The notes under the pieces were generated by a model. The model saw only the letters and a program-made list of their open reading frames with translations. It searched no databases and had not been told where the DNA came from. Below, piece by piece: positions 36,760-62,880 of a DNA stretch of 64,000 nt. Position 1 is the stretch's first letter. Each line of letters opens with the position of its first letter. This DNA is from Halomonas sp. THAF5a (GTDB lineage: Bacteria; Pseudomonadota; Gammaproteobacteria; Pseudomonadales; Halomonadaceae). The DNA lies in NCBI RefSeq assembly GCF_009363755.1, contig NZ_CP045417.1, positions 1,860,001-1,924,000 on the forward strand. Reading direction: 5' to 3'. The position numbers and the translations under genes were made by a program.

Positions 36760-36800
36760 CAATGAAAGATCACGCAAACTGTTAAGATACATGGCATTGA
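36760..36800 (+). promoter_or_regulatory. Candidate extended -10 promoter of the kps-PKS operon
   Basis: TGTTAAGAT (36780-36788) fits an extended -10 element (TGnTAAGAT). No good -35 is found at 16-18 nt, which extended -10 promoters tolerate. Predicted start of transcription about 36795 leaves a leader of about 40 nt before the TTG start at 36836. The surrounding 100 nt are clearly more AT-rich than the genes. No JUMPstart/ops element (GGCGGTAG) was found. Confidence 0.4.
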
Positions 36801-36835: not shown

Positions 36836-38887
36836 TTGGCCTTGACCGCTACCTCCCTGAACGGCGGCACCGTCGCCGTGACCACGCGCAGCCTGCTGCA
36901 CCTGCCGACGCTGCGGGCCTGTCTGCCCGACGTCGCGCAGTTTCGTCTGTTTCGTTCGGGCCTCGATGTCCGGCGACCAGCCGCCATCCTGGGCTGGGGA
37001 CACAAGCCCTCGTCTCGCCAGGCCCGTGATTATGCCCGACGCCAGGGCCTGCCCTACGTGGCCGTCGAGGACGGTTTCCTGCGCTCCTGGGGGCTCGGCG
37101 CACAGGGGTTCGCTCCTCACGGCCTGATTGTCGACCCTCAGGGCATCTACTACGACGCCTCTCGACCCTCGCACCTCGAGAGCCTGATCGAAACGGCCGA
37201 CTTCACTCAGAAGGAGCTTGAACGCGCCCGCCAGGCCATGGCGCGGCTGCGAGACCTGCGCCTTTCCAAGTACAACCACGCACCGGATACCCCCCTGCCC
37301 CCAAGCGGCCGGCCTCGCGTGCTGGTCGTGGACCAGACCGCCGGTGACGCCTCCATCACTGGCGGGCTCGCCGGCGCGGAGGACTTCTCGCGTATGCTCG
37401 AGCGAGCCCTGGCCGAGCACCCGGAAGCCGAGATCCTCATCAAGGTGCACCCGGACGTCGTGGCCGGCAAAAAGCACGGACACCTGGATCGCGCCAGGGA
37501 ACAGCAGCGCTGTCGGATCATCGGCGAGGACCTCAATCCCTGGGCGCTGTTCGATGCCGTAGACTGCGTTCACGTCGTCACCAGCCAGCTGGGCTTCGAA
37601 GCGCTGATCGCCGGCAAGCGCGTCGTCTGCCACGGCGCGCCCTTCTACGCCGGCTGGGGGCTGACCGACGATCGCCGCCCCGTGCCTCGCCGCGGCCAGC
37701 AGAGAAGCCTCGTACAGCTCTTCGCCGCCGCCTACCTGCGCTATACCCGCTACGCCAACCCCCACACGGGCGAGGCCACCACCCTCGAGGCCACCATCGA
37801 TCTGATCGCCGACCAGGTGCGCCAGCAGCGACGCCTGGCCGGCGAGTGGACGACCTTTGGGCTGTCACGCTGGAAGCGCGGCTTCGTCGGCGACTTCCTC
37901 GGCGCACAGGCCAGGGTGCGTCACGCCGACCTGCCGCGGTCCCGACGAGTCTCCTCCGAAGGTCAGACGACCGTCGAGGCTCCGCAGGGGCGCAGCCTCT
38001 GCTGGGCGAGCCACGATACCGCGGTGTTACACGACCGTGGCCTCGCACCCTGGCACATGGAGGACGGCTTCGTTCGCTCGGTCGGGCTCGGGGTCGACCT
38101 GGCCCGTCCGCTCTCTCTGGTCGTTGATCGGCGCGGCATCTACTACGACGCCGAACGACCCAGCGATCTCGAACATCTGCTGGAACACGGCAAGATCGAT
38201 GACGTCTTGCGTCGCCGCGCCGCCGACCTGCGCCGGCGCCTGGTGCGTCTGCGGATGTCGAAGTACAACCTCTCCGGCGGTGCCCTGCCGGCGCTGCCCA
38301 GCGATCGACGCCTACTGCTGGTGCCGGGGCAGGTGGAATCGGATGCCTCTATCGCCAGGGGCTCGCCCGATATCACTACTAACGCGGCACTGCTGTCAGC
38401 AGTACGTGCCGCCAATCCCTCGGCGTTCATCATTTACAAGCCGCATCCGGATGTCGTCAGCGGCGCGCGGGTCGGCCGACTCGAGGACGCCGCCAGGTCC
38501 CTCTACGACCTGGACGCCAGTCATGCCGATCTTACCGGCCTGCTGGACAGCGTCGACGAGGTGCACACCATGAGCTCGCTGACCGGCTTCGAGGCACTGC
38601 TCAGGGGCCGTGAGGTCGTCACCTACGGCACGCCCTTCTATGCGGGCTGGGGCCTCACCCGGGATCATCGCGCCTGTCCGCGTCGCCAGCGCCGCCTGAC
38701 GCTGGACGAGCTGGTAGCCGGGGCGCTGATCCTCTACCCCCTCTATGTCGATCCAGTAAGCCGGCAGCTGTGCAATGCCGAAACGGTCGTCTCGCTACTG
38801 GAACAGGCTCGCCGTGGCGGCGGGCAGCTCGGCTGGAAGCATCGTCTCTATCGCTGGTACCGCAACGTCTTCATCGGCAGGCACTGA
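36836..38887 (+). CDS. kpsC: KpsC-type dual beta-Kdo transferase (capsule linker synthesis)
   Basis: 683 residues if it starts at the TTG at 36836, which has AAGGGA 7 nt upstream; an ATG at 36791 would add 15 residues but has no ribosome site and overlaps the predicted transcription start. The protein is an internal duplication, as in KpsC: EDGFLRS...GIYYDASRPS (about 78-105) recurs as EDGFVRS...GIYYDAERPS (about 409-436), and FYAGWGLT recurs at about 270 and 601. In group 2 capsules the two halves add alternating beta-Kdo residues to the lipid-linked primer in the cytoplasm. First gene of a six-gene run. Confidence 0.93.
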   Translation: MALTATSLNGGTVAVTTRSLLHLPTLRACLPDVAQFRLFRSGLDVRRPAAILGWGHKPSSRQARDYARRQGLPYVAVEDGFLRSWGLGAQGFAPHGLIVDPQGIYYDASRPSHLESLIETADFTQKELERARQAMARLRDLRLSKYNHAPDTPLPPSGRPRVLVVDQTAGDASITGGLAGAEDFSRMLERALAEHPEAEILIKVHPDVVAGKKHGHLDRAREQQRCRIIGEDLNPWALFDAVDCVHVVTSQLGFEALIAGKRVVCHGAPFYAGWGLTDDRRPVPRRGQQRSLVQLFAAAYLRYTRYANPHTGEATTLEATIDLIADQVRQQRRLAGEWTTFGLSRWKRGFVGDFLGAQARVRHADLPRSRRVSSEGQTTVEAPQGRSLCWASHDTAVLHDRGLAPWHMEDGFVRSVGLGVDLARPLSLVVDRRGIYYDAERPSDLEHLLEHGKIDDVLRRRAADLRRRLVRLRMSKYNLSGGALPALPSDRRLLLVPGQVESDASIARGSPDITTNAALLSAVRAANPSAFIIYKPHPDVVSGARVGRLEDAARSLYDLDASHADLTGLLDSVDEVHTMSSLTGFEALLRGREVVTYGTPFYAGWGLTRDHRACPRRQRRLTLDELVAGALILYPLYVDPVSRQLCNAETVVSLLEQARRGGGQLGWKHRLYRWYRNVFIGRH

Positions 38888-38888
38888 T

Positions 38889-40127
38889 TTGAGTTCCCCC
38901 AAGCGCTCCTTCCTGTTTCTGCAGGGCGTCTGCTCGCCCTTCTTCCAGCGTCTGGCTCGCCGACTGGTGGCCGATGGCCACCGCGTTGCCAAGGTGCATT
39001 TCGCGGGGGGCGACATCGCCTACTGGTCCCGGCAGAGCGGACGCGCCTATCGATTCCGTGAGTCGCTGGCGGCGCTGCCGGCGTTTCTCGAGGAGATACG
39101 CCAGCGCCACGGAGTGACCGACCAGGTGCTCTTTGGCGACCAGCGCCCCATACACCGGGCCGCCATCGCCTCGGCACGCGCCGATGGCGTGCGTAGCCAT
39201 GTGCTCGAGGAGGGCTATTTCCGCCCCTTCTGGATCACCCTCGAGCAAGAGGGGGTGAACGGCCATTCGCTGCTGCCCCAGAATGCCACCTGGTTTCGCG
39301 AGGTCGCACCAAGCCTGCCGGCGCTCCCGCGGCCGACGCGGTTCCGCTCGCCGTTTCGCGTGCGCGCCACCCATGATGTGCTTTATCACCTGGCGGGACT
39401 CGGCAACCCCGTCCTCTTTCCCCGCTATCGCAACCATGCGCCGGTCACGGCGCCGGTCGAGTACGCCGGCTATCTCAAGCGCTTCACCCAGCTGCGCTTC
39501 TGGAAGCCCCGGGACGCCCGGCGCATCGCGTCCCTCATCGACGAGCCACGGCCCTACTTCGTGCTGCCCCTGCAGCTCAACAGCGACGCCCAGATTCGCG
39601 ATCACTCCGACTTCTCCGGCATGCCCGAGGTCATTGAGCACGTCATGGCCTCCTTCGCCCGAGGGGCGTCGAGCGACAGCCGGCTTTGCATCAAGAATCA
39701 CCCGCTGGACATGGGACTGATCGACTACGCCGGCCTGATCGCCAGGCTCGAGCGCCGTTACGGGCTGGAGGGGCGGATCGTCTATCTCGAGTCGGGCGAC
39801 CTCAATGCACTGTTGAAACATGCGACGGGTACGATCACCGTCAACAGCACCTCGGGCATCGTCGCCCTGGAACACGGCTGCCCGACCATCGCCCTCAGCC
39901 GCCCCATCTACCGCCTGGACGGCCTGGCCTTCAAGGGTACGCTGGACGAATTCTGGCGCCAGCCGACGCCGCCCGACCACGACCTCTTTCGCTGCTTTCA
40001 CAAGACCGTCATGCACACCGTACAGCTCAACGGGGGCTTCTACTGCCGCCCCGGCATCGATCTCGCCCTGGATCACGTGACCCGCCGCCTCGAGGCCGAA
40101 GTCTCCCCCCTCGAGGCCCTGCTGTGA
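38889..40127 (+). CDS. kpsS: KpsS-type capsule linker Kdo transferase
   Basis: 412 residues from a TTG at 38889, one base after the kpsC stop; the longer frame to 38775 overlaps kpsC coding sequence. The FLFLQGVCSPFFQRLARRL start, GGDIAYW, LEEGYFRPFWITLE, LQLNSDAQIRDHSDF, IKNHPLD and the late TVNSTSGIVALEHGCPTI are typical of the KpsS/LipB capsule export family. Known members transfer the first beta-Kdo to lyso-phosphatidylglycerol. Here the lipid acceptor may instead be the product of the downstream PKS, which is inference. Stop overlaps the SDR start by 4 nt. Confidence 0.92.
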   Translation: MSSPKRSFLFLQGVCSPFFQRLARRLVADGHRVAKVHFAGGDIAYWSRQSGRAYRFRESLAALPAFLEEIRQRHGVTDQVLFGDQRPIHRAAIASARADGVRSHVLEEGYFRPFWITLEQEGVNGHSLLPQNATWFREVAPSLPALPRPTRFRSPFRVRATHDVLYHLAGLGNPVLFPRYRNHAPVTAPVEYAGYLKRFTQLRFWKPRDARRIASLIDEPRPYFVLPLQLNSDAQIRDHSDFSGMPEVIEHVMASFARGASSDSRLCIKNHPLDMGLIDYAGLIARLERRYGLEGRIVYLESGDLNALLKHATGTITVNSTSGIVALEHGCPTIALSRPIYRLDGLAFKGTLDEFWRQPTPPDHDLFRCFHKTVMHTVQLNGGFYCRPGIDLALDHVTRRLEAEVSPLEALL

Positions 40128-40900
40128 GGCGCGTCGCACGACCACCGGCCCGCATCCTGATCACCGGCGCCAGCGGAGCGATCGGCGCCGCCCTCGCGCA
40201 AGCCTATGCCGCCAAGGGCGTTCATCTGGTACTCCACGGGCGTAGGTTCGAGGCCCTCGAGGCGCTCGCCGAGGCGTGCCGGACCCACGGCGCCACGGTC
40301 GAGCTCTCGAGCATCGAGCTGACTGACGATGAGGCGCTGCATGCCTGGCTCGACGACCTCACGCTGCCCGACCTGGTCATCGCCAATGCGGGCCAGAACC
40401 ACCATGCCGCCCAGGGCGAACTGATGGAAGAGTGGGACGCCACCCAACGGCTGCTCGCGATCAATCTGCACGTGCCGATGGCGATGGCCCAGCGGCTCGC
40501 ACCGAGGATGGCCGCGCGGGGGCACGGCCAGCTCGTCTTCGTCAGCTCGCTCGCCGCGTGGCATGGCTTGCCGCTGACACCCAGCTACAGCGCCAGCAAG
40601 GCCGGCATCAAGGCCTATGCGGAGGCCCTGCGCGGCCGGTTGGCGCCTCAGGGCGTGGGCGTCAGCGTGGTCATGCCCGGTTACGTCAGCTCGCCCATGT
40701 GCACGGCCATGCCTGGCCCCAAGCCCTGGGAGCTCTCACCCGAGCTTGCCGCCCGCCGCATCGTCCGCGGCATCGCCCGCAATCGAGCCCGCATCAGCTT
40801 CCCCTTCCCGCTCAACGTCGGCTGCTGGTGGCTGGCGGTGCTACCCGCTGGCGTCTCCCAGCGCCTTCTGGCCTGGATGGGCTATGGAGGAGAGTCATGA
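40124..40900 (+). CDS. Short-chain dehydrogenase, candidate 3-keto-amine reductase
   Basis: 258 residues from the GTG at 40124 (GTGA overlap with kpsS). Cofactor loop ITGASGAIGAALA, IANAG, the catalytic Ser in FVSSLAAW and YSASKAG are intact. The C-terminal extension after MPGYVSSPMCTAM ends in a hydrophobic helix region (VGCWWLAVLPAGVSQRLLAWM), like SDRs that reduce lipid ketones at membranes, including 3-ketosphinganine reductases. Its place between kpsS and the PKS/oxoamine synthase suggests that it reduces the 3-ketone of the released amino lipid. Substrate unproven. Confidence 0.85.
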   Translation: MRRVARPPARILITGASGAIGAALAQAYAAKGVHLVLHGRRFEALEALAEACRTHGATVELSSIELTDDEALHAWLDDLTLPDLVIANAGQNHHAAQGELMEEWDATQRLLAINLHVPMAMAQRLAPRMAARGHGQLVFVSSLAAWHGLPLTPSYSASKAGIKAYAEALRGRLAPQGVGVSVVMPGYVSSPMCTAMPGPKPWELSPELAARRIVRGIARNRARISFPFPLNVGCWWLAVLPAGVSQRLLAWMGYGGES

Positions 40901-42480
40901 CGTCAGATCTCTGGTGGCCCTGGCTGTGCGGCCTCGGGCTCACGCTCGGGCTGGAGGCGCTGCTCCGGCCGGCCGTGGCGCGGTTCTGGCGGCGCCCCCT
41001 CGCCACTCACCTGGTGCATCTCGGCACCTGGAGCCTGGTCTACGCGCTCTTCGTGCTGGTCCTGCAGCGTCCCTGGTTTGCGATGGCGTTCATCGCCGCC
41101 CTGCTGCTCGTGGTGGTGCAGTCCAGCAACACCAAGTGGCAGACCCTGCGCGAGCCGTTCATCTACCAGGACTTCGAGTATTTCCTCGACGCCATCCGTC
41201 ACCCGCGGCTCTACGTGCCCTTCTTCGGCATCGGCCTGGCGCTCGGGGCGATCACCGCCGGCGCCTTGGCCATTGGCGGCTTCCTGCTTCTGGAACCCTC
41301 CCTGCTGACTGGCGATCGTCCCGTCCACGCCTTCATCGCCCTGCTGGTCAGCCTGCCGCTCGCCGCGCTGCTGATCATGCTCGGTCTACGCCGGCTGCCT
41401 TCGTGTATCCTGGTGCCGCAGCAGGACCTGCACCGGCTAGGCCTGTTCAGCGCCCTCTGGGCCTACGGCCGGCTGGCGAGCCAGCCCCTGGCCGCTCCCA
41501 CCGGCGACGCCTTTCCTCCCGCCCAACCGACGCGCCGCGCTCAGCAGGACCTGCCCCACGTCGTGGCCGTGCAGAGCGAGTCGTTCTTTGACCCGCGCGA
41601 TTGGTGCCCGGCGCTCGAACACGGCGTGCTGGCAGAGTATGACGAGATGGTGTTGGAAGCCGTGGCCCACGGCCCGCTCCGGGTACCGGCCTGGGGTGCC
41701 AATACGGTGCGCACCGAGGCGGCCTTCCTGACCGGCCTCGACCAGGTAGCCCTGGGGATTCATCGCTTCAATCCCTATCACCCGCTGACCAGGCAGGGAG
41801 TGCCTTCCCTGGCCAGCCGCCTGCGCGGGCTTGGATATCGTACCGTCTGCGTGCACCCCTACCCGGCCGGCTTCTACGCTCGAGACCGGGTGATGCCGCG
41901 GCTGGGTTTCGACGACTTCATCGATATTCGCGCCTTCGATGAGACGGAACGCTGCGGCCAGTACGTCGGCGATGTCGCCGTGGCCGACAAGGTTGGCAAG
42001 CTGCTGACCGATCAGGACAATAGGCCACTTTTCGTCTTCGCGATCACCATGGAGAATCACGGTCCGCTGGATCTGGACCCGCTCGATCCAGGGCCGCCAG
42101 AGGCCTGGTTCACACCCGGAGTGACGATACCGTCGGGAGAGTGCGGGGAGCTCTTGAACTACCTCGCCCACCTGCGCAACGCGGATCGAATGACCCGCCG
42201 GCTGCGGCAGGCCCTTCGCGATGCCCCTCGCGAGGGGCTGCTCTGCTGGTATGGCGATCATGTGCCGATCATGCCCAGGGCCTACCATCGGTTCGGCCTG
42301 CCCGACGGCAGCACGACCTACACGCTGTGGTCGACGTGGCAGCGACAAGGCGCCGCTTCAGACCACGCGCCTCTCTACGCCAACCAGCTGGGACAGCGCC
42401 TGTGGCAAGCGGTGCTGGAAGGCAGGCCCGGCGCCCAAGACCAGGAAGTCACAACATCGCATCATCAGGAGCAAGCATGA
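40897..42480 (+). CDS. LtaS/OpgB-like membrane phosphotransferase (alkaline phosphatase superfamily)
   Basis: 527 residues from the ATG at 40897 (GGAGGAG upstream; ATGA overlap with the SDR). Five membrane helices occupy about residues 1-180, then an extracytoplasmic sulfatase-fold domain. Likely metal and nucleophile residues: E228 (VQSESFFD), T270 (GANTVRTEAAFLTG) and D454-H455 (WYGDHVPIMP). Family members move glycerol phosphate (LtaS, OpgB) or phosphoethanolamine from a phospholipid to a glycan or lipid. Here it probably decorates the glycolipid made by this operon at the outer face of the inner membrane. Donor and acceptor cannot be read from sequence. Stop overlaps the PKS start. Confidence 0.88.
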   Translation: MTSDLWWPWLCGLGLTLGLEALLRPAVARFWRRPLATHLVHLGTWSLVYALFVLVLQRPWFAMAFIAALLLVVVQSSNTKWQTLREPFIYQDFEYFLDAIRHPRLYVPFFGIGLALGAITAGALAIGGFLLLEPSLLTGDRPVHAFIALLVSLPLAALLIMLGLRRLPSCILVPQQDLHRLGLFSALWAYGRLASQPLAAPTGDAFPPAQPTRRAQQDLPHVVAVQSESFFDPRDWCPALEHGVLAEYDEMVLEAVAHGPLRVPAWGANTVRTEAAFLTGLDQVALGIHRFNPYHPLTRQGVPSLASRLRGLGYRTVCVHPYPAGFYARDRVMPRLGFDDFIDIRAFDETERCGQYVGDVAVADKVGKLLTDQDNRPLFVFAITMENHGPLDLDPLDPGPPEAWFTPGVTIPSGECGELLNYLAHLRNADRMTRRLRQALRDAPREGLLCWYGDHVPIMPRAYHRFGLPDGSTTYTLWSTWQRQGAASDHAPLYANQLGQRLWQAVLEGRPGAQDQEVTTSHHQEQA

Positions 42481-45400
42481 CCAGACGCGTGGCCCTTATC
42501 GGCGTTGCCCACCGCATGCCGGGCACCACTCCCGAGACCTTCTGGGATGACCTGCAGGCCGAGAAGGACCTGGTGACCCAGGTGGCCAGCGACCGCTGGA
42601 GCCACGAGGCCTTCCAGCACCCGGACCGTCGCCATCCCGGCACCAGCGTGACCTTCGCCGCCGGCAGCCTGGGCGACATCAGCGGCTTCGACGCGGAGTT
42701 CTTCGGCATCTCCCCCCGGGAGGCGGCGCACATGGACCCGCAGCAGCGCATGCTGCTGGAGCTGACCTGGGAGGCCATGGAGAACGCCGGCATCGCGCCG
42801 AGCCGGCTGCGCGGCAGCCGCTGCGGTGTCTATCTGGGCATTGCCAGCATGGACTATGCGTATCGCATAGCCGATGACATGGCGGTTATCGATGCGCCCA
42901 CCGCTACGGGCAACACCTCGAGCATCGCCTCCAATCGCCTCTCCTACCTGTTCGATCTGCAGGGGCCGAGCATGTCGGTGGACACCGCCTGTTCCTCGGC
43001 GCTGGTGGCCTTCCACCAGGCCTGCCAGGCAATTCGCTCGGGCGAGACCCCCATGGCCCTGGCAGGCGGCATCAGCCTGCACCTGCACCCCTACGGCTTC
43101 ATCATCTTCTCCAAGGCCAGCATGCTCTCATCGTCGGGGCGCTGCCGCGCCTTCGATGCCGACGGCGACGGCTACGTGCGCTCTGAGGGCGCCGGCATGT
43201 TCCTGCTCAAGGACTACGACCAGGCGGTGGCCGACGGCGACCCTATCCTGGCCGTGGTGGCCGGCTCCGCCGTCAACACCGACGGTCACAAGCAGGGCCT
43301 GACCGTGCCCAACGCCGATGCTCAGGTGGCCCTGATGCGCCAGGCCTATGCCCAAGCCGGTATCACCCCGGACGAGATCGACTACCTCGAGACCCACGGT
43401 ACGGGCACCGCCGTCGGCGATCCCATCGAGACCCGCGCCATCGGCGAAGCCCTGGCACAAGGGCGCCAGCAGCCCCTGCCCATCGGCTCGGTGAAGAGCA
43501 ACCTCGGCCACCTCGAGACGGCCTCCGGCGTGGCCGGCCTTGCCAAGGCGCTCTACAGCCTGCGCCATCGCGAAGTGCCGGCCACCATCGGCATTCGCCG
43601 GCTCAATCCGAAGATTCGAACAGACGAGTGGAATCTCGAGGTGGTCCGCCGGCCGCTGCCCCTCAAGGCCGAGGGGCGCCTGGTCATCGGCGTCAACTCC
43701 TTCGGCTTCGGCGGCGCCAACGCCCACGTGATCCTCGAGAGCCCCCCGACCCCACAGACTCCGGTTCAAACCGTATCCGACGCCGACCGCCCACTGCCGC
43801 TACGCGTCACTGCGCGTGGCTCAGAGGCCCTGGCCGCCTCGGCGTCGGCGCTGGCCGAGCATCTGGAGAATGCGGAGGACAGCCTCTACGGCATCGCCCA
43901 TACCCTGTATCGCCACCGCGAGCACCATCGCGATGGGCTGCTGCTGTTCGCCACCCGTCGCGAGGAGGCGGCACGGCGCCTGGCCGCCTGGAGCGCGCAG
44001 GACGAGCAGAACGATGCAGGACTCGGCATCGTGCGTGGCACCCGACTCGAACAGGCCCAGGGGCCGGCCTTCGTCTATGACGGCAACGGCTGCCAGTGGG
44101 AGACCATGGGGCGCGACCTGCTGGCCAGCTCCCAGGTCTTCGCCTCGGCGGTGGACGAGGTCGATGCGCTGTTCGAGCCTCGCGCGGGTTTCTCGCTGCG
44201 CGCCGAGCTCGAGGGCCGCCATCGCGAGGACCACGACAGCGAGGATCGCTTTGCCCGTACCGAAATCGCCCAGCCGGCACTGTTCGCCGTCCAGGTAGGC
44301 ATCACCCGCCTGCTGGCCGCCTACGGCATCCACCCGACGGTGGTGACCGGACATAGCGTAGGGGAAGTCGCGGCGGCCTGGGCCAGCGGCGCCCTGTCGC
44401 TGGCCGACGCGGTGCGCGTCATCCACCTGCGCAGCCACTACCAGGGGCTGACCCGCGGTCAGGGCGAGATGAGCGCCGTGGGCCTCGGGGAAGATGACGT
44501 GCTCGCTCTTCTCGAGGGTCCGGAATACGCTGAACTCTCGCTGGCCGGCACCAACAGCGCCAAGGGCACCACCGTCGCCGGACCCGCCGAGGCGCTGACA
44601 CGTCTCGAGCAAGCGCTCGACGCACAGCGCATCTTCGCCAAGCGCCTCCCCCTGGACTACGCCTTCCACAGCCCGGCGATGAACCCCATCGAGAAGGATC
44701 TGGTCGCCGAGCTGGCCGGGCTCTCCCCGAAGCCGTCTCGAGTGCCCTACGTCTCCACCGTGACCGGTGCCCGTCTCGAGGGCGAGGCGCTCGGCCCCAA
44801 CTACTGGTGGGACAACATTCGCCAGCCGGTTCGCTTCGAGGCGGCGATGGCCAGCGTGGTCGAGGCAGGAACCAACGTCCTGATCGAGATCGGCTCGCAT
44901 CCCATCCTACGCCGCTATCTCACGGAGGCCTTGACGCAGGCGGATCAGCCGGGCCTGGTGATCGGCACCCTCGAGCGCTCGCGGAACGGGGCCGCCTGCC
45001 TGGAGCGTACCGTGGGAGAGGCGCTGCTCAGCGGCATTGCCCACGACGACACTCCGTGGTTCCCGGTGGATTCACCGCGGGTCGAGCTGCCTCGCTACCC
45101 CTGGCAGCACCGGCGTCACTGGATCCCCGGCACGGCCAGCGCCGGCGGCCTGCTCGCGCGCCACTACGAGCATCCGCTGCTCGGCTATCGCCTGGCCCAG
45201 CAGACCCTTACCTGGGAGAGCGAGCTCGATACGGGCCGCCATCCGTGGCTCGGCGATCATGTGGTCGGCGATGCCGCGATTTTCCCCGGCGCCGGCTTCG
45301 TGGAGCTTGCCCTGGCAGTCGCCACCCAGTGGCGTGCCCCGGCCCTGCTCGATATCGAAGAGCTCGAGATCCAGGCGCCGCTGATGCTTGACGGCCCGCA

Positions 45401-48400
45401 CGGGCGCACCCTGCGCCTCGCGGTCGAGCCGACCGATGGCCGCCTCGCCGTGCGCTCGCGTGAGACCGGCAGCGACGGTGATTGGCAACTGCATGCCACC
45501 GCGCGGATCATGGAGCAAAGCCGCGGCCTGATGCTGACGCGCCGCGCCCCAACTTGCCCACGCCGGGCGCCGGACGTGACCCTACCCGACCATTTGACGG
45601 CGGCCGCGCGCCTGGGGCTCGCCTACGGGCCGGCCTTCCAGGCCATCGACCGCGCCTGGGTCGAGGGCGACGAGGTGATCGGCACCGTCTACCCGACCGA
45701 AGCCATCGAGGCGCAGCGCGACACCCTGTGGCTACATCCCGGCATCCTCGACAGCGCCTTCCAGTTGTTCCTTCCTCTCCTCGACCACCTGGAGGCCGCC
45801 CAAGACGGCCTGGCCTTCGTGCCGGTGCGGGTCGGTCGTGTGCAGTTCGATCCCGCCGCCGGTGCCCCGACCCTGGCCAGAGCAAAGCTGATCAAGCGCG
45901 CGCCCTACTCCTTCACCGCCGACTTCGAGCTCTTCGACGCCGAGGGGCGGGCCGTGGCGGTGCTCACCGAGACCCGCTTCAAGGCCCTGCGCCTGACGAA
46001 GGGCGATGAGAACGCGCTCAGCTACCTGGACGTCGCCCTGACGCCGGCCCCCCGTCGCGAAGGACGCCTCCCGGCCAGCCTGGCAGCGCTGCAGGCCGCT
46101 CTTCCCAAGCTGATAGACGGCTATGCCGACGCCACCCAACGGCGCTACGCCCAGGAGGTGGCCCCCCTGCTCGACCGCCTGGTCGAGGCCTTCGCCGAAC
46201 AGGCCCTTGCCCCCGAGCTCGACGAGGGCTGGCTCAGCCAGGCTCGCTACCAGGCCCTGGCCGGACGCCACCTGCAGGCGCGGCCGCTGCTGGATCAGCT
46301 GCTGCGCCTGCTCGAGGATGCCGGTCGGCTCGAGGCCGACGACGGCGGCTGGCGACTGGCGGACACCGATACGGTCGCCCCCGAGGCCATCTGGCAACTG
46401 CTGATCCAGGACTATCCCGGCCAGGGGGCGGCCATTGCGCGCGTTGGCCGCTTCGGCTTGCACCTGCACGAGCTGCTCGCCGGCGACGCCGACGCCGAGA
46501 CCATCAACCTCTCCCGCGAGGGCCTGGCGCGGTTCAACCGCGATCTGATCGGCCATGACGGCTGGCAGGCCATTGCCGCCCCGCTGGCCGCGGCGCTGAT
46601 GGAAACACGCGCGGCGCTGCCCACCGGACAGCGCTTAGGCCTGCTGGAGGCCGGCGTCGGCGCCCCGATACTGGGCGAGCGCCTCGCCGAAACCCTCGAC
46701 CCTGACCGCTGCGACTATCGCATCCTCGCCGTCGGCGATCAGGCCTGGCAGCAGGCCGCGGCGCTGCGCGACCGCCAGCCGCGGATCGAGCTCGAAACCC
46801 TGGAAGCCCCGTCCACGGCCGGCGCCCCGGCCGAGCTCGCCCTGGTCAGCCTGGACATCACCGATCGCGAGGGGAGCCGTCGCCTGCTCGAGGCGCTGCC
46901 CGAGCGGCTGGCGCCCGACGCCTCGCTGCTGCTGGTCGGCCTAACGCCGTCCGCCTGGCTCGATGCCCTGCTGGCCACGCCGGGCCTCGGCGACGAGGGG
47001 GAGCCTGCGGCCGGTGCCTGCGAGCGCGAGGACGTTATCGCCTGGCTCGAACGGCTCGGTGCCGAAGAAGTGTACCCGCTGCCGCTGGAGGGCGAGACCG
47101 GCGCCTACCTGGTGCATGCCCGCCTGCCCGGCGAGCCCCGAGTCGAGCCTTATGCGCTCCGTCATCGCCTGCTGGTCGCCGACGAAACGCAGCGGTCCCT
47201 GGCCCTCTCTCTGCAGGAGGCGCTGATCGCTCAGGGCGACAACGTCACCCTGCTCGATGCCCCGCCCATGGCCGAGCATTGGCAGGCGCTGCAGCACGCA
47301 GCAAGTCAAGAGGGCGCCGCGCTCGACATCCTCGATCTCGCCGCGCCCGACACCGCGCGCTGCCGCCGGGCGGCCCACTGGGCACGGCGGCTGGAGACGC
47401 CGGCCACCGAGACCACGCTCTGGCTGGTGACCCGAGGCGTGGCCGCCATGTGGACCGCGACCGACGCCGTCGCGTCCGACGACGCCGCGCTGTGGGGCTT
47501 CGGCCGCAGCCTCGCCAACGAGGCCGATGCCTTCGAGATCAAGCTGGTCGACTTGCCCGACGATGCCGACCTGCCCGAAGCCGCCGACGAGGCGATACGC
47601 CAGGCGCTCTTGCTCGAACTGGGCGCACCGGACGCCGAGAACGAGATGGTGATCGATGCCGAGGGCCGACGCTTCGCCACCCGCCTGCGCGAGTTGCCGG
47701 CGCCTGAGCAGCGCCTCGCCGAGGAAGATGGAAACGGGCCCGGGGCCATGACCCTCGGCTTCCCGCTCCCCGGCCAACTGCGTCACCTGAGTTGGATGCC
47801 CCGCCCGCTGCCTTCTCCAGCGGCGGGCGAGCTCGAGGTGCGGGTCGAGGCCACCGGCCTCAACTTCCGCGACGTCATGTACACTCTCGGCCTGCTCTCC
47901 GACGAGGCCATCGAGAACGGCTTCGCCGGCCCGACCCTGGGGCTGGAGTTCGCCGGCGTGGTGGAGCGCGTCGGGTCCGGCGTCGACGACCTCTCCCCGG
48001 GGGATGCGGTGGTCGGCTTCGGCCCGGCCAGCTTCAGCGACCGGCTGATCGCCGATCGTCAGGCCATCGCTCCGCTGCCAACGGGACTCGACTTCGCCGC
48101 GGCGGCCACCATCCCCACCACCTTCTTCACGGTCTACTACGCGCTCAAGCACCTGGCGCGCCTGGCGCCCGGCGAGCACGTGCTGATCCACGGCGCGGCC
48201 GGCGGCGTCGGCCTCGCCGCCATCCAGGTCGCCCGCTGGCTGGGCGCTGAGATCCACGCCACCGTGGGCTCCGACGAGAAGCGCGACTTCCTGCGCCTGC
48301 TCGGCGTCGAGCGCCTGCACGATTCTCGGGCCCTGACCTTCGCCGAGGAGATTCTCGCCGAGACCGACGGCCGCGGCGTCGACGTGGTGCTGAATTCGCT

Positions 48401-49979
48401 CGCCGGCGAGGCCATCAATCAGAACCTGAGGGTGCTGCGTCCCTTCGGCCGCTTCCTGGAGCTCGGCAAGCGCGACTTCTACGAGAACACCCATATCGGA
48501 TTACGCCCCTTCCGCAACAACCTCAGCTACTTCGGCATCGATTCCGACCAGCTGATGAAGGCCTGCCCGGAGCTGACTCGCACGCTGTTCACCGAGATGA
48601 TGGCGCTCTTCGAGGACGGCACCTTCACACCGCTGCCCTACACCGCCTTCGGCCATCACCAGGTCGTCGAGGCCTTCCGCTATATGCAGCAGGCCCGCCA
48701 GATCGGCAAGGTGGTGGTGACCCAGGAACACGCACTGGCAGGCTCGGCCCAGCCGGCAGCCACCACGACGCCCTCGCTGAGTCTGCGCGACGACGCCAGC
48801 TACCTGGTCACCGGCGGCCTGGGCGGCTTCGGCCTGCGCACCGCCGAGTGGCTCGCCGATCGAGGCGCCCGGCACCTGATCCTGATCGGCCGACGTGGCC
48901 TGGATGGCCCGGAGGCACGCGAGGGCGTCGCGCGCCTGCAGGCACAGGGCGTCACGGTCACGGCCGCGGCCTGCGACGTCAACGATCGCGAAGCGCTGGC
49001 GGCCCTGCTGGCTCGCTGCCGCGACGAGCTGCCGCCGCTGCGCGGCGTGGTGCATGCCGCCGCCGTCATCGAGGACGCGCTGATCCGCAACCTCGAGGAC
49101 GAGCGACTCGAGCGCGTGCTGGCCCCCAAGGTGGCGGGCGCCCGCCATCTGGATGAGCTGACCCGCGACGACCCGCTGGAGCTCTTCGTGCTCTACTCCT
49201 CGGCGACCACGCTGTTCGGCAACCCCGGCCAGGCCGCCTACGTGGCCGCCAATCACTGGCTCGAGGCACTCGCGGCCGAGCGCCGCGCCCGGGGCCGGCC
49301 GGTCACCTGCGTCCGCTGGGGCGCCATCGAGGACGCCGGCTTCCTGGCACGCCACACCCGCACGCGGGAGGCGCTTCAGGAACGCCTCGGCGGCTCGGCC
49401 CTGCGCGCCGAGGCCGCCCTGGACGTGCTCGAGGCGATGCTCGAAGCATCACGCGAAGGGCAGACTCCTAGCCTCGGCGTGCTCGAGCTGGAGTGGTCCG
49501 CCCTGGCCCGCTTCCTGCCCACGGCAGCGGCGCCGCGATTCAGCGAGATCGCCGGCGCCGCGAGCGGCGACGACCACCAGGACGAGGCCGGACAGGACAT
49601 CGCCCGGCTGATCGCCGAGCTCACGCCGGAAGAACTCCACGCCACGGTGACCGAGCTGCTCAAGGCGGAGCTGGCCAGCATCCTGATGATCGAGGAGGAG
49701 AAGATCGACGTGCACCGCTCGGTCTACGACATGGGCTTCGACTCGCTGATGGGGGTGGAGCTGATGACGGCCATCGAGGCCCGCCTGGGCGTGCGTGTCC
49801 CGGTGATGGTGCTCAGCGAGGCCTCGACCCTCGATCGGCTCGCCGCCGTGCTGATCGAGCGCCTGAGCCGAGACGACGCCCCGGACGATGACGACGAGCT
49901 GGCAGCCCTGGCCGCTCGGCATGGCGCCGAGACACCCAGCGATCACGATACGCCCACGAGCCAGGAGGCGATTTCCTGA
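42477..49979 (+). CDS. Highly reducing type I polyketide synthase without thioesterase
   Basis: 2500 residues from the ATG at 42477 (AGGAGC site; ATGA overlap). Domains in order: KS 1-425 (C172 in DTACSSAL, H307 in HGTGT, H345 in KSNLGH); AT about 528-850 (S627 in GHSVGE; YAFH favours malonyl-CoA); DH about 895-1170 (H928, D1092); a degenerate methyltransferase-like region (LLEAGVGAP at 1389); a KR-like structural half about 1560-1740; ER about 1765-2080 (HGAAGGVGLAAIQ at 1905); KR about 2085-2340 (GGLGGFG at 2113, Y2255); ACP with S2423 in GFDSL. All reductive steps are present, so iterative use would give a saturated acyl chain. The acidic tail has no thioesterase; release needs the next gene. 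Confidence 0.93.
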   Translation: MTRRVALIGVAHRMPGTTPETFWDDLQAEKDLVTQVASDRWSHEAFQHPDRRHPGTSVTFAAGSLGDISGFDAEFFGISPREAAHMDPQQRMLLELTWEAMENAGIAPSRLRGSRCGVYLGIASMDYAYRIADDMAVIDAPTATGNTSSIASNRLSYLFDLQGPSMSVDTACSSALVAFHQACQAIRSGETPMALAGGISLHLHPYGFIIFSKASMLSSSGRCRAFDADGDGYVRSEGAGMFLLKDYDQAVADGDPILAVVAGSAVNTDGHKQGLTVPNADAQVALMRQAYAQAGITPDEIDYLETHGTGTAVGDPIETRAIGEALAQGRQQPLPIGSVKSNLGHLETASGVAGLAKALYSLRHREVPATIGIRRLNPKIRTDEWNLEVVRRPLPLKAEGRLVIGVNSFGFGGANAHVILESPPTPQTPVQTVSDADRPLPLRVTARGSEALAASASALAEHLENAEDSLYGIAHTLYRHREHHRDGLLLFATRREEAARRLAAWSAQDEQNDAGLGIVRGTRLEQAQGPAFVYDGNGCQWETMGRDLLASSQVFASAVDEVDALFEPRAGFSLRAELEGRHREDHDSEDRFARTEIAQPALFAVQVGITRLLAAYGIHPTVVTGHSVGEVAAAWASGALSLADAVRVIHLRSHYQGLTRGQGEMSAVGLGEDDVLALLEGPEYAELSLAGTNSAKGTTVAGPAEALTRLEQALDAQRIFAKRLPLDYAFHSPAMNPIEKDLVAELAGLSPKPSRVPYVSTVTGARLEGEALGPNYWWDNIRQPVRFEAAMASVVEAGTNVLIEIGSHPILRRYLTEALTQADQPGLVIGTLERSRNGAACLERTVGEALLSGIAHDDTPWFPVDSPRVELPRYPWQHRRHWIPGTASAGGLLARHYEHPLLGYRLAQQTLTWESELDTGRHPWLGDHVVGDAAIFPGAGFVELALAVATQWRAPALLDIEELEIQAPLMLDGPHGRTLRLAVEPTDGRLAVRSRETGSDGDWQLHATARIMEQSRGLMLTRRAPTCPRRAPDVTLPDHLTAAARLGLAYGPAFQAIDRAWVEGDEVIGTVYPTEAIEAQRDTLWLHPGILDSAFQLFLPLLDHLEAAQDGLAFVPVRVGRVQFDPAAGAPTLARAKLIKRAPYSFTADFELFDAEGRAVAVLTETRFKALRLTKGDENALSYLDVALTPAPRREGRLPASLAALQAALPKLIDGYADATQRRYAQEVAPLLDRLVEAFAEQALAPELDEGWLSQARYQALAGRHLQARPLLDQLLRLLEDAGRLEADDGGWRLADTDTVAPEAIWQLLIQDYPGQGAAIARVGRFGLHLHELLAGDADAETINLSREGLARFNRDLIGHDGWQAIAAPLAAALMETRAALPTGQRLGLLEAGVGAPILGERLAETLDPDRCDYRILAVGDQAWQQAAALRDRQPRIELETLEAPSTAGAPAELALVSLDITDREGSRRLLEALPERLAPDASLLLVGLTPSAWLDALLATPGLGDEGEPAAGACEREDVIAWLERLGAEEVYPLPLEGETGAYLVHARLPGEPRVEPYALRHRLLVADETQRSLALSLQEALIAQGDNVTLLDAPPMAEHWQALQHAASQEGAALDILDLAAPDTARCRRAAHWARRLETPATETTLWLVTRGVAAMWTATDAVASDDAALWGFGRSLANEADAFEIKLVDLPDDADLPEAADEAIRQALLLELGAPDAENEMVIDAEGRRFATRLRELPAPEQRLAEEDGNGPGAMTLGFPLPGQLRHLSWMPRPLPSPAAGELEVRVEATGLNFRDVMYTLGLLSDEAIENGFAGPTLGLEFAGVVERVGSGVDDLSPGDAVVGFGPASFSDRLIADRQAIAPLPTGLDFAAAATIPTTFFTVYYALKHLARLAPGEHVLIHGAAGGVGLAAIQVARWLGAEIHATVGSDEKRDFLRLLGVERLHDSRALTFAEEILAETDGRGVDVVLNSLAGEAINQNLRVLRPFGRFLELGKRDFYENTHIGLRPFRNNLSYFGIDSDQLMKACPELTRTLFTEMMALFEDGTFTPLPYTAFGHHQVVEAFRYMQQARQIGKVVVTQEHALAGSAQPAATTTPSLSLRDDASYLVTGGLGGFGLRTAEWLADRGARHLILIGRRGLDGPEAREGVARLQAQGVTVTAAACDVNDREALAALLARCRDELPPLRGVVHAAAVIEDALIRNLEDERLERVLAPKVAGARHLDELTRDDPLELFVLYSSATTLFGNPGQAAYVAANHWLEALAAERRARGRPVTCVRWGAIEDAGFLARHTRTREALQERLGGSALRAEAALDVLEAMLEASREGQTPSLGVLELEWSALARFLPTAAAPRFSEIAGAASGDDHQDEAGQDIARLIAELTPEELHATVTELLKAELASILMIEEEKIDVHRSVYDMGFDSLMGVELMTAIEARLGVRVPVMVLSEASTLDRLAAVLIERLSRDDAPDDDDELAALAARHGAETPSDHDTPTSQEAIS

Positions 49980-51322
49980 TGAGCCGCACACGCCACACAT
50001 CGGATCTCAAGCAGCAGCTCCTCGGGGAGGCTCGGGGTCGACGGCGCACGCGTCCCGCCGCCCCTCCGTCCAGGGACGAAGCCCCCGGCGCGCCACCGAG
50101 CACCACCGGCGTCCCTGAGCACCTGACCCGCTTCGACCAGCACCCCGGCTACCAGCAGCTGAGCATGATGCGCGAGGGTGCTCGGCGGCTCGGCCTGACC
50201 GATCCGTTCTTCAAACGCCACGACGGCAACGCCGGAGCAACCACGACGATCCAGGGGCGTGAGTACCTGAACTTCGCCAGCTATAACTACCTCGGCTTCT
50301 CCGGCGATCCCCGCGTCAACCGCGCCGCCCAGGACGCCCTGGAGCGCTACGGCAGCTCGGTCTCCGCCAGTCGGATCGTCTCCGGAGAAAGGCCGATTCA
50401 TGGCGAACTCGAGGCGGCTCTCGCCGAGGCCTACGGCGTGGATGACGCCGTGGCCTTCGTCAGCGGTCACGCCACCAACGTCTCGACCCTCGGCTACCTG
50501 CTCGGCCCGCGCGACCTGGTCCTTCACGACGCCTACGTGCACAACAGCGCCCTGGTCGGGGCGCAGCTCTCCGGCGCCCAGCGCATGGCCTTCGCCCACA
50601 ACGATCCGGCGGCGCTGGAGGACCTGCTGAGCCGTCACCGTCACCGGTTCGAGCGGGTGATGATCGTCATCGAAGGGCTCTACAGCATGGACGGCGACCT
50701 GCCAGACTTGCCGCGCTTCGTCGAGATCAAGCGTCGCCACCAGGCCTGGCTGATGGTGGACGAAGCGCACTCCTTCGGCGTGCTGGGCGAACGTGGCCTG
50801 GGCCTGCGCGAACACTTCGACGTGCCTGCCAGCGACGTGGATATCTGGATGGGCACCCTGAGCAAGACGCTCGCGGGATGCGGCGGCTTCATTGCCGGCT
50901 GCCAGGCGCTGGTAGACACCCTCCGCTACCTGGCGCCAGGGTTTCTCTACAGCGTGGGCATGCCCGCCCAGGTGGCCGCGCCCTCGCTTGCGGCCCTGGC
51001 GTTGATGCGCGAGGAGCCCGAGCGCGCCAGGCGGCTGCGCGAGATCTCGCGGTACTTCCTCGACCGGGCGCGGGACAGGGGACTCGACACCGGCGAGAGC
51101 ATCGGCGCCGCGGTGGTGCCGGTCATCCTCGGCAGCTCACCGCTCGCCGCAAGCGTCTCCCATGCGCTGTTCGAGCGGGGCATCAACGTGCAGCCGATCC
51201 TGCATCCCGCCGTGCCGGAGAAGAGCGCGCGGCTGCGTTTCTTCCTCTCCTGCGATCATACCGAGGCCGATATCGACTGCACCCTCGACGAGTTGACAGC
51301 CATCCTGGCCGCCCACCCCTGA
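49979..51322 (+). CDS. PLP-dependent alpha-oxoamine synthase
   Basis: 447 residues; the ATG at 49979 shares one base with the PKS stop (TGATG). A disordered Arg/Pro-rich N terminus (about 1-60) precedes the fold-type I domain with NYLGFSGDPRV, GERPIHGELE, D261 in DEAHSFGVLG and the PLP lysine K296 in TLSKTLAGCGG. Family members (KBL, BioF, HemA, SPT) condense an acyl thioester with Gly, Ala or Ser and lose CO2. Coupled to a TE-less PKS, it should take the chain from the ACP and release a 2-amino-3-ketone, as oxoamine synthases do in fumonisin-type pathways. The amino acid used is unknown. Confidence 0.92.
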   Translation: MSRTRHTSDLKQQLLGEARGRRRTRPAAPPSRDEAPGAPPSTTGVPEHLTRFDQHPGYQQLSMMREGARRLGLTDPFFKRHDGNAGATTTIQGREYLNFASYNYLGFSGDPRVNRAAQDALERYGSSVSASRIVSGERPIHGELEAALAEAYGVDDAVAFVSGHATNVSTLGYLLGPRDLVLHDAYVHNSALVGAQLSGAQRMAFAHNDPAALEDLLSRHRHRFERVMIVIEGLYSMDGDLPDLPRFVEIKRRHQAWLMVDEAHSFGVLGERGLGLREHFDVPASDVDIWMGTLSKTLAGCGGFIAGCQALVDTLRYLAPGFLYSVGMPAQVAAPSLAALALMREEPERARRLREISRYFLDRARDRGLDTGESIGAAVVPVILGSSPLAASVSHALFERGINVQPILHPAVPEKSARLRFFLSCDHTEADIDCTLDELTAILAAHP

Positions 51323-57227: not shown

Positions 57228-57260
57228 GAAGACTCGATACGGGCATGCATTCAAGAGGCA

Positions 57261-57288
57261 ATCGATGGCTCGACGTCGAGCCATCGAT
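57261..57288. repeat. Perfect 28-bp palindrome in the leader of the two-domain GT2 gene
   Basis: ATCGATGGCTCGAC is followed directly by its exact reverse complement, with no spacer. It lies in the 137-nt gap between the fusion gene stop (57365) and the GT2 start (57227). As RNA it would fold into a long hairpin; as DNA it is an ideal site for a dimeric protein. Confidence 0.9.
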
Positions 57289-57364
57289 CGAGTGAAAGGT
57301 GCGGCAGTCTAGCAGCTCTTGGGCGTCTCCCAGTGAGAAGATTCACGGCAAAACCCGACCCTGT

Positions 57365-62600: not shown

Positions 62601-62850
62601 CGTCGAAGCCGGGGCCGGGGGCCAGTCCGGCGGCCGCCCCGCGGGTGAGGTAGTGCGTCACCGGATCGCAGGAGGCGTCCTGGCACTCTTGAAGGGCCGG
62701 CTGGCGCCGGTACCAGTCGGCATCGAACCAGTCGCTTTCCCGAAGCAACCGGCACTGATCGGACAAGGCACCTGGCGCTCGCTCCCGTGCCGGCAGACGC
62801 GTGACCACCCCACGCCACCACCGCTTGATCGGTGACCTACGCATTGTCAT
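59671..62850 (-). CDS. GT2-GT4 fusion glycosyltransferase with FDxxWYL/EGR modules
   Basis: 1059 residues; ATG at 62850 follows GGATGG. Residues 35-115 hold two tandem modules (FDADWYRRQ...HYLTRGAAAG and FDGAWYLAHYPDVAEAGLNP...EGR). A GT2 domain follows (about 308-560; VSVIVPVYNAAGSVATALRS, VVDDASRDDT, HDSDDW), then a second module pair (FDAGWYLRTHLDLQEA, then ASGYRYAYPDVVEQ...REGRAPWP, about 595-675), and a GT4 domain (about 685-1050; GAERSLLDVL, ESFGRTALEAMAAARPVVGY). Such modules are common in surface-polysaccharide transferases. The stop overlaps the next gene, so the two are coupled. Confidence 0.88.
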   Translation of the reverse strand: MTMRRSPIKRWWRGVVTRLPARERAPGALSDQCRLLRESDWFDADWYRRQPALQECQDASCDPVTHYLTRGAAAGLAPGPGFDGAWYLAHYPDVAEAGLNPLVHFLRHGRHEGRLPRRNRALAWEHHLWRGAHAVMVPRLEALRGDDTANDEERQHAAWALARWWAWQGEWSRVRACLLPEGGLIAHPAHIGPALLAVEALCSPSLAAGAGPNANSERATRLPRVLAEMDRRFPTRADTCLAHANALDDEAKRLSWINRIWQAEGLATVSRRVPGQPLTLDNLAPDTPQCSPLTPPPSRLTPHSPPLVSVIVPVYNAAGSVATALRSLFAQTWRSLELLVVDDASRDDTWRVLQALEAECPDHVRLRLLRHAVNGGAYAARNTGLMAASGALITTHDSDDWSHPEKLARQVAILEAAPAAVASLSHWVRATPGLRFHRWRVEEEGWVYRNISSLMVRRSAVDVLGGWDEVAVNADSEYHERLIAAFGEASVVDTLPGVPLAFGRADGGSLSQRGATHLVTQFVGVRQAYMDAARRWHAEAEVPADLRLPHRAPWRPFAAPAAICRQALPVRSAHPLDALQASGLFDAGWYLRTHLDLQEAIIEPLVHYWQAGSAEGRDPGPRFSASGYRYAYPDVVEQDQEPLHHFLTRGRREGRAPWPILPGAADYQSGARSVLLCGHQAGRALYGAERSLLDVLKAMRRLGWNVVVCLPSAVNGPYVEALRAHARAVAVLPYGWWQRGRSLEPATLRHFRGLIRRFGIEGVHANTLVLEEPLVAARQAGVPAVVHVRELPAHDAALCRTLDADADTLLRRVREGADLVIANSRATAVACEAPRHDASTTPAPPVRVVPNTVEMGPLLALPTREAPSLAVGMLSSNLPKKGLEDLEAMAHHLARLAPELKVVLYGPRTTALESLLARQARGLAPECLVYGGYVVAPAEALAELDIVVSLSRFQESFGRTALEAMAAARPVVGYAWGALPELVEEGITGHLVALGDTEGAARRVAELARDDSRRERMGEAGRCRAQERFGEAAMAAALYEAYAALPDFSDPAITERRPA

Positions 62851-62880
62851 CGCAGCACACCATCCGCTTGATACGGGCGG

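Follow-up and report, generated by a model that had tools for sequence, protein, structure and literature searches.

Halomonas Capsule Operon Joining kps Kdo Transferase Genes to Polyketide Synthase and Oxoamine Synthase Genes, and a KpsS Lineage That Goes with the Lipid Genes

The DNA analyzed here (the window) is a 64-kb piece (64,000 nucleotides) of the 3.8-Mb, single-contig genome of Halomonas sp. THAF5a. It carries six plus-strand open reading frames (ORFs) in the order kpsC-kpsS-SDR-rkpI-PKS-oxoamine synthase, that is, genes for two predicted transferases of 3-deoxy-D-manno-oct-2-ulosonic acid (Kdo), a short-chain dehydrogenase/reductase (SDR), an LtaS-like (RkpI-like) membrane enzyme, a type I polyketide synthase (PKS), and an alpha-oxoamine synthase. 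Judged by its genes and their sequences, this operon is a Halomonas-family member of the described rkp-1/wcb capsule-lipid module, joined to the enzymes of the Kdo linker. Comparison of kps-bearing genomes shows that one lineage of KpsS, here called type B, goes with the lipid genes and that KpsC does not do so likewise. Below, genomes, loci, and families are designated by G, L, and f numbers, respectively.

Organization of the operon

All six ORFs were found at the positions given in a first-pass annotation of this DNA (Table 1), and the tight coupling described there was confirmed, the junctions being a 1-nt gap, three 4-nt overlaps, and a 1-nt overlap. Pfam searches assign Capsule_synth domains to kpsC and kpsS, a short-chain dehydrogenase domain to the third gene, a Sulfatase domain to the fourth, a ketosynthase (KS)-acyltransferase (AT)-dehydratase (DH)-enoylreductase (ER)-ketoreductase (KR)-acyl carrier protein (ACP) series to the PKS, and a class I/II aminotransferase domain to the synthase. 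As annotated, kpsC and kpsS have TTG starts and the SDR gene has a GTG start; the start of kpsC is uncertain because an in-frame ATG is located 45 nt upstream, at position 36791. The six-gene content and order are kept in 11 of the 13 same-genus loci examined and in 3 loci from other genera of the family, which argues that the arrangement is not due to chance. The two same-genus exceptions are L034, a 5-kb contig, and L032 (G033), a variant cluster with the order kpsS-RkpI-PKS-synthase, in which SDR and kpsC were unmatched within the 20 kb examined. Promoter and terminator scans of the operon returned nothing helpful.

KpsC aligns over both of its halves with the solved KpsC chains 6mgc, 6mgb, and 6mgd (phmmer E values of 9.9e-68 or better) and contains the two Kdo transferase domains by which we recognize a kps capsule. 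KpsS scores 259 bits against the NCBIfam KpsS model NF050054, under its 600-bit cut-off, and is, by sequence, a homologue of the KpsS equivalog that belongs to a different subtype; in the tree described below, it is placed within the lipid-module KpsS group. Apart from kpsC and kpsS, no gene of this genome gave a Capsule_synth match (E value of 0.001). In Escherichia coli, the acceptor of KpsS is lyso-phosphatidylglycerol (lyso-PG). According to PMC12220298, where the acceptor is given as phosphatidylglycerol, KpsS acts first, adding the first Kdo, and KpsC then extends the linker.

Co-occurrence of lipid genes and kps genes

In a phylum sample of 398 genomes, with PKS-type synthases delimited at an E value of 1e-110 and the kps family defined by PF05159, the synthase was found in 19 genomes, PF05159 in 66, and both in 15 (odds ratio, 24; Fisher p = 1e-9), one of these (G377) on a weak PF05159 match. 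Counted by genus, the figures are 10 of 14 versus 51 of 212 (p = 1.4e-4). The synthase cut-off, which was set at an observed gap and agrees with PKS adjacency, keeps 19 of the 24 matching genomes; without it, 16 of the 24 have PF05159. The PKS-type synthase genomes without PF05159 are G069, G097, G222, and G375. Since 15 of 19 synthase genomes have kps genes and only 15 of 66 kps genomes have the synthase, the lipid genes usually imply kps genes and not the reverse. Thus, the rarity of joint occurrence, named in the first-pass annotation as grounds for abandoning its proposal, is not seen from the side of the synthase, yet 51 of the 66 kps genomes have no PKS-type synthase. Its view of the six genes as a unit linked to capsule priming agrees both with these counts and with the KpsS phylogeny. 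Two separate PKS-oxoamine loci (L077 and L081) are present in G069, which has no PF05159 match; the pair may also have a capsule-independent use.

KpsS, but not KpsC, follows the lipid genes

Because KpsS adds the first Kdo and KpsC extends the linker, a module that makes the KpsS acceptor should be followed by KpsS and not by KpsC. On a tree of 84 KpsS sequences (56 from loci or genomes with a PKS-type synthase and 28 without it), this label changes 3 times, versus a mean of 23.8 for shuffled labels, and none of the 500 shuffles gave a value as low. On the KpsC tree (37 plus 21 rows, after two short fragments were dropped, with the G220 gene present twice), the same label changes 8 times (shuffled mean, 17.4), so that label clustering is present but weaker than in KpsS. 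Among 54 matched KpsS/KpsC pairs, in which the G220 gene is counted once, there are 3 versus 6 changes (shuffled means, 16.4 and 16.5). When the module genomes of the matched pairs are constrained to a single clade, the KpsS data do not reject the constraint (p = 0.41), whereas the KpsC data do (approximately unbiased test, p = 7e-105; two rows of the matched KpsC set have long branches). In the Bordetella and Pseudomonas putida loci, KpsS belongs to the module group, whereas KpsC goes with the lineages of the other KpsS type, type A.

The KpsS proteins of G356, G380, and G370, three genomes in which no PKS-type synthase was found, are placed within the module group. When 42 genomes were searched with an RkpI profile, 13 of the 19 module genomes gave a match, as did 3 of the 23 others, precisely these three, which were relabeled "RkpI" after that search. 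The RkpI gene adjoins kpsS in G356 and G380 and is one gene removed from it in G370. Extending the search to all 66 kps genomes added only G360, with a weak partial match of 163 bits. In the order of G356, 118 sampled genomes include 12 with RkpI and 31 with the kps family. Twenty further KpsS sequences from family f96 were labeled before the tree was built, by RkpI alone, and represent 9 of the 10 remaining RkpI genomes (G517 was omitted) and 11 of the 17 kps genomes without an RkpI match. They split exactly by RkpI, with all 9 that have it inside the module group and all 11 that lack it outside. On the resulting 104-row tree, the distinction between "PKS-type synthase or RkpI" and "neither" requires a single change. 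The split has 98/93 support in a careful tree of 84 of the 104 rows and is recovered in 98% of 200 bootstrap trees; the 20 rows omitted from that tree were selected by name and are mostly near-duplicates. The KpsS tree covers 42 of the 66 phylum-sample genomes with kps genes; the 24 outside it include G377 and G360, with their weak matches to PF05159 and RkpI, respectively. Taxonomy alone does not explain the split, as families f56, f69, and f96 each hold both types.

All three exceptional genomes, G356, G380, and G370, encode a serine palmitoyltransferase (SPT) scoring above the curated cut-off, which is found in only 1 of the 25 type A phylum-sample genomes placed in the tree (G157). This moderate evidence suggests that type B KpsS goes with a sphingoid base, which in these three genomes would come from SPT. 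The presence of SPT was nevertheless judged insufficient to mark type B KpsS, for reasons given below.

The column of the KpsS alignment most informative on type is position 163, where an acidic residue (Asp or Glu) is found in 67 of 68 type B sequences (G370 is the sole exception) and in 0 of 36 type A sequences. D163 was rejected as proof of amine binding, since from 0 to 5 columns discriminate equally well for other large branches of the same tree; the residue is no more than a lead for mutagenesis.

Predicted lipid-forming enzymes

Core motifs of the KS, AT, ER, KR, and ACP domains are present in the window PKS, and there is no Pfam thioesterase match at an E value of 0.001. We take the AT motifs to be of the malonyl type. 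The His-8-Pro spacing of the DH domain is found in 97 of 101 aligned PKSs, and the strict HxxxGxxxxP motif is found in 57. A methyl-branched chain was rejected, as none of these 101 sequences (3 of which lack the stretch) has a canonical-like S-adenosylmethionine (SAM) motif in the pseudo-methyltransferase region. A stand-alone secondary-metabolite PKS was rejected as well: the six-gene order recurs in 14 Halomonas-family loci, and among the best 80 named loci in a synthase search of species genomes (more exist), a PKS was detected in 74 and KpsC or KpsS nearby in 28 (27 of 58 among loci of at least 20 kb), the kps counts being lower bounds with 10-kb flanks.

For the synthase family, a profile (A1) has SPT 3a2b as its top solved match (2.6e-100). 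Residues K296, D261, H264, and H188 are conserved in at least 97% of 108 aligned sequences; we take K296 to be the pyridoxal phosphate lysine and the other three to be its partners. The window synthase scores 288, 279, and 197 bits against NCBIfam SPT models, under their cut-offs of 500 to 670 bits, and 337 bits against BioF (TIGR00858), under its cut-off of 426 bits. No SPT match at an E value of 1e-130 was found in the genome from which the window comes. In G222, a 71%-complete genome that has no PF05159 match, PKS and synthase form one 2611-aa polypeptide (L076, 10832-18667; the pseudo-methyltransferase part was unmatched), and this natural fusion makes a direct hand-over from ACP to synthase plausible.

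Other arrangements around the synthase include a 1937-aa frame in G210 (L087, 2201-8014) in which a synthase domain is combined with KS and a DH-like match. In Burkholderia lata (L128, 8956-9873) and in G377 (L066, 13942-14883), a gene for an LpxC-like deacetylase (PF03331) separates the PKS and synthase genes, and ORFs of ~300 to 380 aa are similarly placed in L127, L144, and L163 (Ralstonia, Paraburkholderia, and Cupriavidus). A KpsD-like export gene comes right after the synthase gene in Nitrosomonas europaea (L130, 11194-12405) and in a Desulfomicrobium metagenome-assembled genome (MAG; L102, 3638-4834).

In the SDR, Tyr155 and Lys159 are conserved in at least 95% of 48 aligned sequences. 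The gene is in the same cluster, and blastp at 1e-20 does not match its product to the SDRs of the rhizobial loci compared; by sequence, the correspondence between the two is at the superfamily level.

The AlphaFold model of the RkpI-like protein (mean pLDDT, 87.9) contains five membrane-type helices and an alkaline-phosphatase-fold domain. The best solved relatives in phmmer searches are LtaP (2.4e-9) and GacH (8e-9), and the Foldseek matches are LtaP, GacH, MCR-1, and EptA. E228, T270, D454, and H455 are invariant in 24 aligned sequences and presumably form the metal site and the Thr nucleophile, which gives the protein the LtaS/GacH combination of metal site, nucleophile, and five membrane helices. 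The GacH structure was solved with sn-glycerol-1-phosphate (6dgm). By this resemblance to the phosphoglycerol transferases GacH and LtaP, RkpI is predicted to transfer glycerol phosphate, probably from phosphatidylglycerol.

TABLE 1 Features of the capsule-lipid operon and the adjoining part of the window
Feature	Position	Strand	Basis or remark
kpsC; two-domain predicted beta-Kdo transferase extending the Kdo linker	36836..38887	+	PF05159, 309 bits, 4 stretches
kpsS (RkpJ-like, type B); predicted beta-Kdo transferase placing the first Kdo on lipid	38889..40127	+	PF05159, 260 bits
KpsS codon 163 (Asp)	39375..39377	+	Predicted helix 156-170
SDR, RkpH-like by position; predicted 3-keto reductase	40124..40900	+	PF00106, 123 bits
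RkpI-like, LtaS/GacH kind; predicted phosphoglycerol transferase	40897..42480	+	PF00884
Single-module iterative reducing type I PKS, RkpA/WcbR-like, no thioesterase	42477..49979	+	Pfam and motifs
PKS ketosynthase domain	42483..43751	+	TACSS, HGTGT, NLGH present
PKS acyltransferase domain	44070..45038	+	GHSVGE, YAFH
PKS dehydratase domain	45171..45992	+	Motif His and Pro kept, classical Gly replaced by Asp
PKS pseudo-methyltransferase region, degenerate SAM motif LGLLEAGVGAPILGE	46635..46679	+	Motif comparison
PKS enoylreductase domain	47772..48722	+	Pfam, NCBIfam, motifs
PKS ketoreductase domain	48795..49331	+	Pfam, motifs
PKS acyl carrier protein domain	49656..49850	+	GFDSL
Alpha-oxoamine synthase, RkpG/WcbT-like; predicted release of ACP-bound chain via amino acid condensation	49979..51322	+	PF00155
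Convergent glycosyltransferases and phosphomannomutase	54942..63972	-	Probable remaining part of capsule locus

Remainder of the capsule locus

Upstream of the operon, on the opposite strand, is a gene that we take from its translation to be prfC. Downstream, an OmpA-like gene is followed by convergent glycosyltransferase and sugar-nucleotide genes; the sugar-nucleotide genes and a KpsT-, KpsM-, and KpsD-like exporter extend to 24 kb beyond the end of the window, with the KpsMT-type ABC pair and the KpsD-like gene (L169, 908-4122) located 21 to 24 kb past it. No KpsE was identified alongside these KpsMT/KpsD-like genes. From this gene content, the operon and the downstream glycan and export genes look like one capsule locus. 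Its glycan part includes a minus-strand gene (57365-59674) that encodes a GT2-like domain joined to an AlgX/SGNH-like acetyltransferase domain.

Proposed pathway and alternatives

From the observed gene content and order, their conservation, the active-site motifs, and the co-segregation of KpsS with the lipid genes, we infer a series of chemical steps. Working iteratively, the PKS would form an acyl chain, saturated and without branches, on its own ACP, from which the synthase would take the chain and join it to an amino acid, most likely serine, although glycine and alanine are possible, yielding a 3-keto sphingoid base whose ketone the SDR would reduce to give a sphinganine-like base. RkpI would then transfer glycerol phosphate to this base, probably from phosphatidylglycerol, and the resulting sphingoid phosphoglycerol would mimic lyso-PG, which could explain the presence of an LtaS/GacH-like enzyme in the operon. 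Type B KpsS would add the first beta-Kdo to this acceptor and KpsC would extend the linker, after which the glycan would be built and carried out by the ABC exporter. Taken as a whole, the reading in which PKS, oxoamine synthase, SDR, and RkpI make a sphingoid phosphoglycerol that type B KpsS primes is the one we favor, with a confidence only slightly above even. It retains the sphingoid-like amino alcohol with a phospho-substituent that was proposed in the first-pass annotation, as something that we infer rather than observe.

Several observations weigh against this pathway. The catalytic domains of EptA and MCR-1 are periplasmic, and, since these two enzymes are among the nearest full-length folds of RkpI, the active site of RkpI is probably periplasmic, too. 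KpsS acts in the cytoplasm, so that the lipid would have to be flipped or the steps would have to follow a different order: either the phosphoglycerol product formed on the outer face would return to KpsS or RkpI would act later. Nor is RkpI universal, as it had no match at an E value of 1e-30 in 6 of the 19 PKS-type synthase genomes, 3 of which (G220, G315, and G318) have kps genes. Of the 36 type A genomes in the final tree, 12 (G157 and 11 from f96) also have SPT, which on its own therefore does not predict type B. The three SPT-bearing exceptions come from just two families, f96 and f68; f96 is SPT positive whatever its KpsS type (29 of 29 kps genomes above the cut-off), and the lipid genes looked for in the 20 added f96 genomes, including the nine with RkpI, were those for RkpI and SPT rather than the PKS pair.

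Other points against it come from the literature and bear on an alternative in which the PKS-oxoamine lipid is an export helper, or a separate membrane amino-lipid, and lyso-PG remains the KpsS acceptor, as it is in E. coli. The rkp-1 region is described in PMC4881576 as required for secretion of poly-Kdo. Deletion of a region that includes wcbR left the capsule reduced rather than absent (PMC7858667, excerpt), so that the lipid may not be essential, and a "phospholipid anchor," which may be an ordinary one, is reported in excerpted text for the capsule of Sinorhizobium meliloti 1021. However, there is no reason to expect that a pure helper would match the enzyme of priming, and it is KpsS, not KpsC, that segregates with the lipid genes; we therefore consider this alternative rather unlikely, while giving it real weight.

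A cassette inherited as a unit would also produce matching trees, and kpsS and the lipid genes could have traveled together with no functional contact between their products. KpsS is near the module in many loci, and RkpI adjoins it not only in G356 and G380 (one gene off in G370) but also, by coordinates, in f96 genomes. Co-inheritance as the only cause nevertheless appears improbable, as the KpsC proteins of Bordetella and P. putida, encoded in the same loci, go with type A lineages, unlike their KpsS, and as the KpsS of G149 (7 contigs) is still of type B despite being encoded 608 kb into a contig other than that of the synthase. In five further genomes (G204, G220, G238, G318, and G324), KpsS and the synthase are on different draft contigs, which gives no distance between them. 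Least probable of all, and in our opinion very doubtful, is a GacH-like role in which RkpI would decorate the completed glycan with glycerol phosphate in the periplasm, with KpsS priming the PKS lipid without phosphoglycerol. In its favor, the best solved matches include GacH, which acts on a glycan, the fold points to an active site in the periplasm, and kps-bearing module genomes G220, G315, and G318 have no RkpI match; against it, RkpI follows the KpsS type and, in genomes where no PKS pair was found, is encoded next to KpsS or close by.

A generalization of the sphingoid phosphoglycerol pathway would recognize two lipid classes of kps capsule, with type A KpsS acting on lyso-PG and type B KpsS acting on a sphingoid phosphoglycerol, whose base would come from PKS-oxoamine synthase or SPT and whose phosphoglycerol would come from RkpI; type B would be recognizable by its lineage and by the acidic residue 163, which could pair with the amine. 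We regard this scheme as tentative, its chances being somewhat below even. If it is true, the rkp-1/wcb "lipid carrier" is a glycosphingolipid capsule anchor. The rkp-1/wcb lipid has been postulated for decades, and the KpsS split makes its identity directly testable through the acceptor of each KpsS type. Should the sphingoid answer hold, the capsules of rhizobia, Burkholderia, Bordetella, and halophiles would be built on a lipid different from the E. coli one, with a bearing on symbiosis, immune recognition, and capsule-based vaccines.

Relation to known capsule-lipid systems

The best 80 synthase loci come from alpha-, beta-, and gammaproteobacteria and a few other groups. Relatives beyond Pseudomonadota include L143 and L161 (Rhodopirellula and Blastopirellula) and L156 (a Nitrospira MAG), with no PKS match in the DNA examined (only 4.4 kb for L143); in L156, kpsC and kpsS matches are located ~8 kb downstream of the synthase.

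The S. meliloti rkp-1 region (rkpU, rkpA-F encoding a fused PKS/fatty acid synthase, rkpG, rkpH, rkpI, and rkpJ) contains the same kinds of genes as the window operon, which combines a single-module reducing PKS without a thioesterase, an adjoining synthase of the RkpG lineage, and homologues of RkpI and KpsS (RkpJ) in one cluster. The order PKS-synthase-SDR-RkpI-KpsS was found in 11 rhizobial loci (from Ensifer, Sinorhizobium, Rhizobium, Pararhizobium, Xaviernesmea, and two further Rhizobiales), in agreement with the rkpA-J set listed in the excerpt of PMC7902896. Compared with three such loci (L105, L108, and L120), identity over the matched part is 47 to 51% for the synthase, 36 to 40% for KpsS, and 34 to 36% for the PKS; RkpI is 26% identical to its counterparts in L108 and L120 and has no match at 1e-20 in L105. 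The window differs from rkp-1 in its gene order, in the inclusion of kpsC in the operon, in an SDR that is not close, and in its gammaproteobacterial host. The rkp-1 products are said in PMC4881576 to take part in making a "specific lipid carrier."

In Burkholderia, the wcb cluster (wcbR for the PKS, wcbT, and others) likewise includes the gene for the PKS WcbR among capsule genes. The wcb and rkp genes are for the most part homologous, including those for the PKS WcbR/RkpA (PMC3908369, excerpt), and wcbR serves fatty acid synthesis for the capsule, as stated in the excerpt of PMC7858667. Burkholderia loci L128, L142, L147, and L151 have the order RkpI-PKS-synthase. The window synthase is 57% identical to two Burkholderia-type relatives, one of them in the B. 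lata locus L128, to whose RkpI the window RkpI is 39% identical; unlike in the window, the LpxC-like gene separates PKS and synthase in that locus. The vague memory of PKS/oxoamine genes near proteobacterial capsule genes that accompanied the first-pass annotation was therefore right (rkp-1 and wcb), and its candidate "new class" of lipid-anchored surface glycan is not supported, since the gene set is the described rkp-1/wcb module (PMC4881576 and PMC3908369, both in excerpt). In the open-access literature searched, no description of the chemistry of the rkp-1/wcb lipid was found, although one may exist outside it, and nothing was found there that joins KpsS with sphingolipids or oxoamine synthases with capsules and PKSs. 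A role of such genes in forming a special capsule lipid has already been published, and the two-type KpsS result appears to be new within the literature searched.

Like the E. coli group 2/3 kps systems, whose glycolipid terminus comprises lyso-PG and poly-Kdo, the genome of this Halomonas strain encodes KpsC and KpsS homologues, an ABC exporter, and a KpsD-like protein; in contrast to them, its KpsS is far under the NCBIfam cut-off and the lipid genes are extra. The window KpsS is found across the KpsS tree from those of genomes without lipid genes, in a tree that held no named E. coli KpsS.

The SPT pathway of sphingolipid-making Proteobacteria, which uses a specialized ACP and an acyl-ACP donor (PMC9386255, excerpt), involves the same enzyme superfamily and the same predicted chemistry as the window synthase. 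The window differs from it in that the acyl chain would come from a dedicated type I PKS and in that its synthase scores under the SPT cut-offs. In this combination of a reducing PKS without a thioesterase, release by an oxoamine synthase, and 3-keto reduction, the predicted pathway is similar to the fumonisin-type pathway of fungi, which differs in yielding a secondary metabolite unlinked to a capsule and in having an active methyltransferase.

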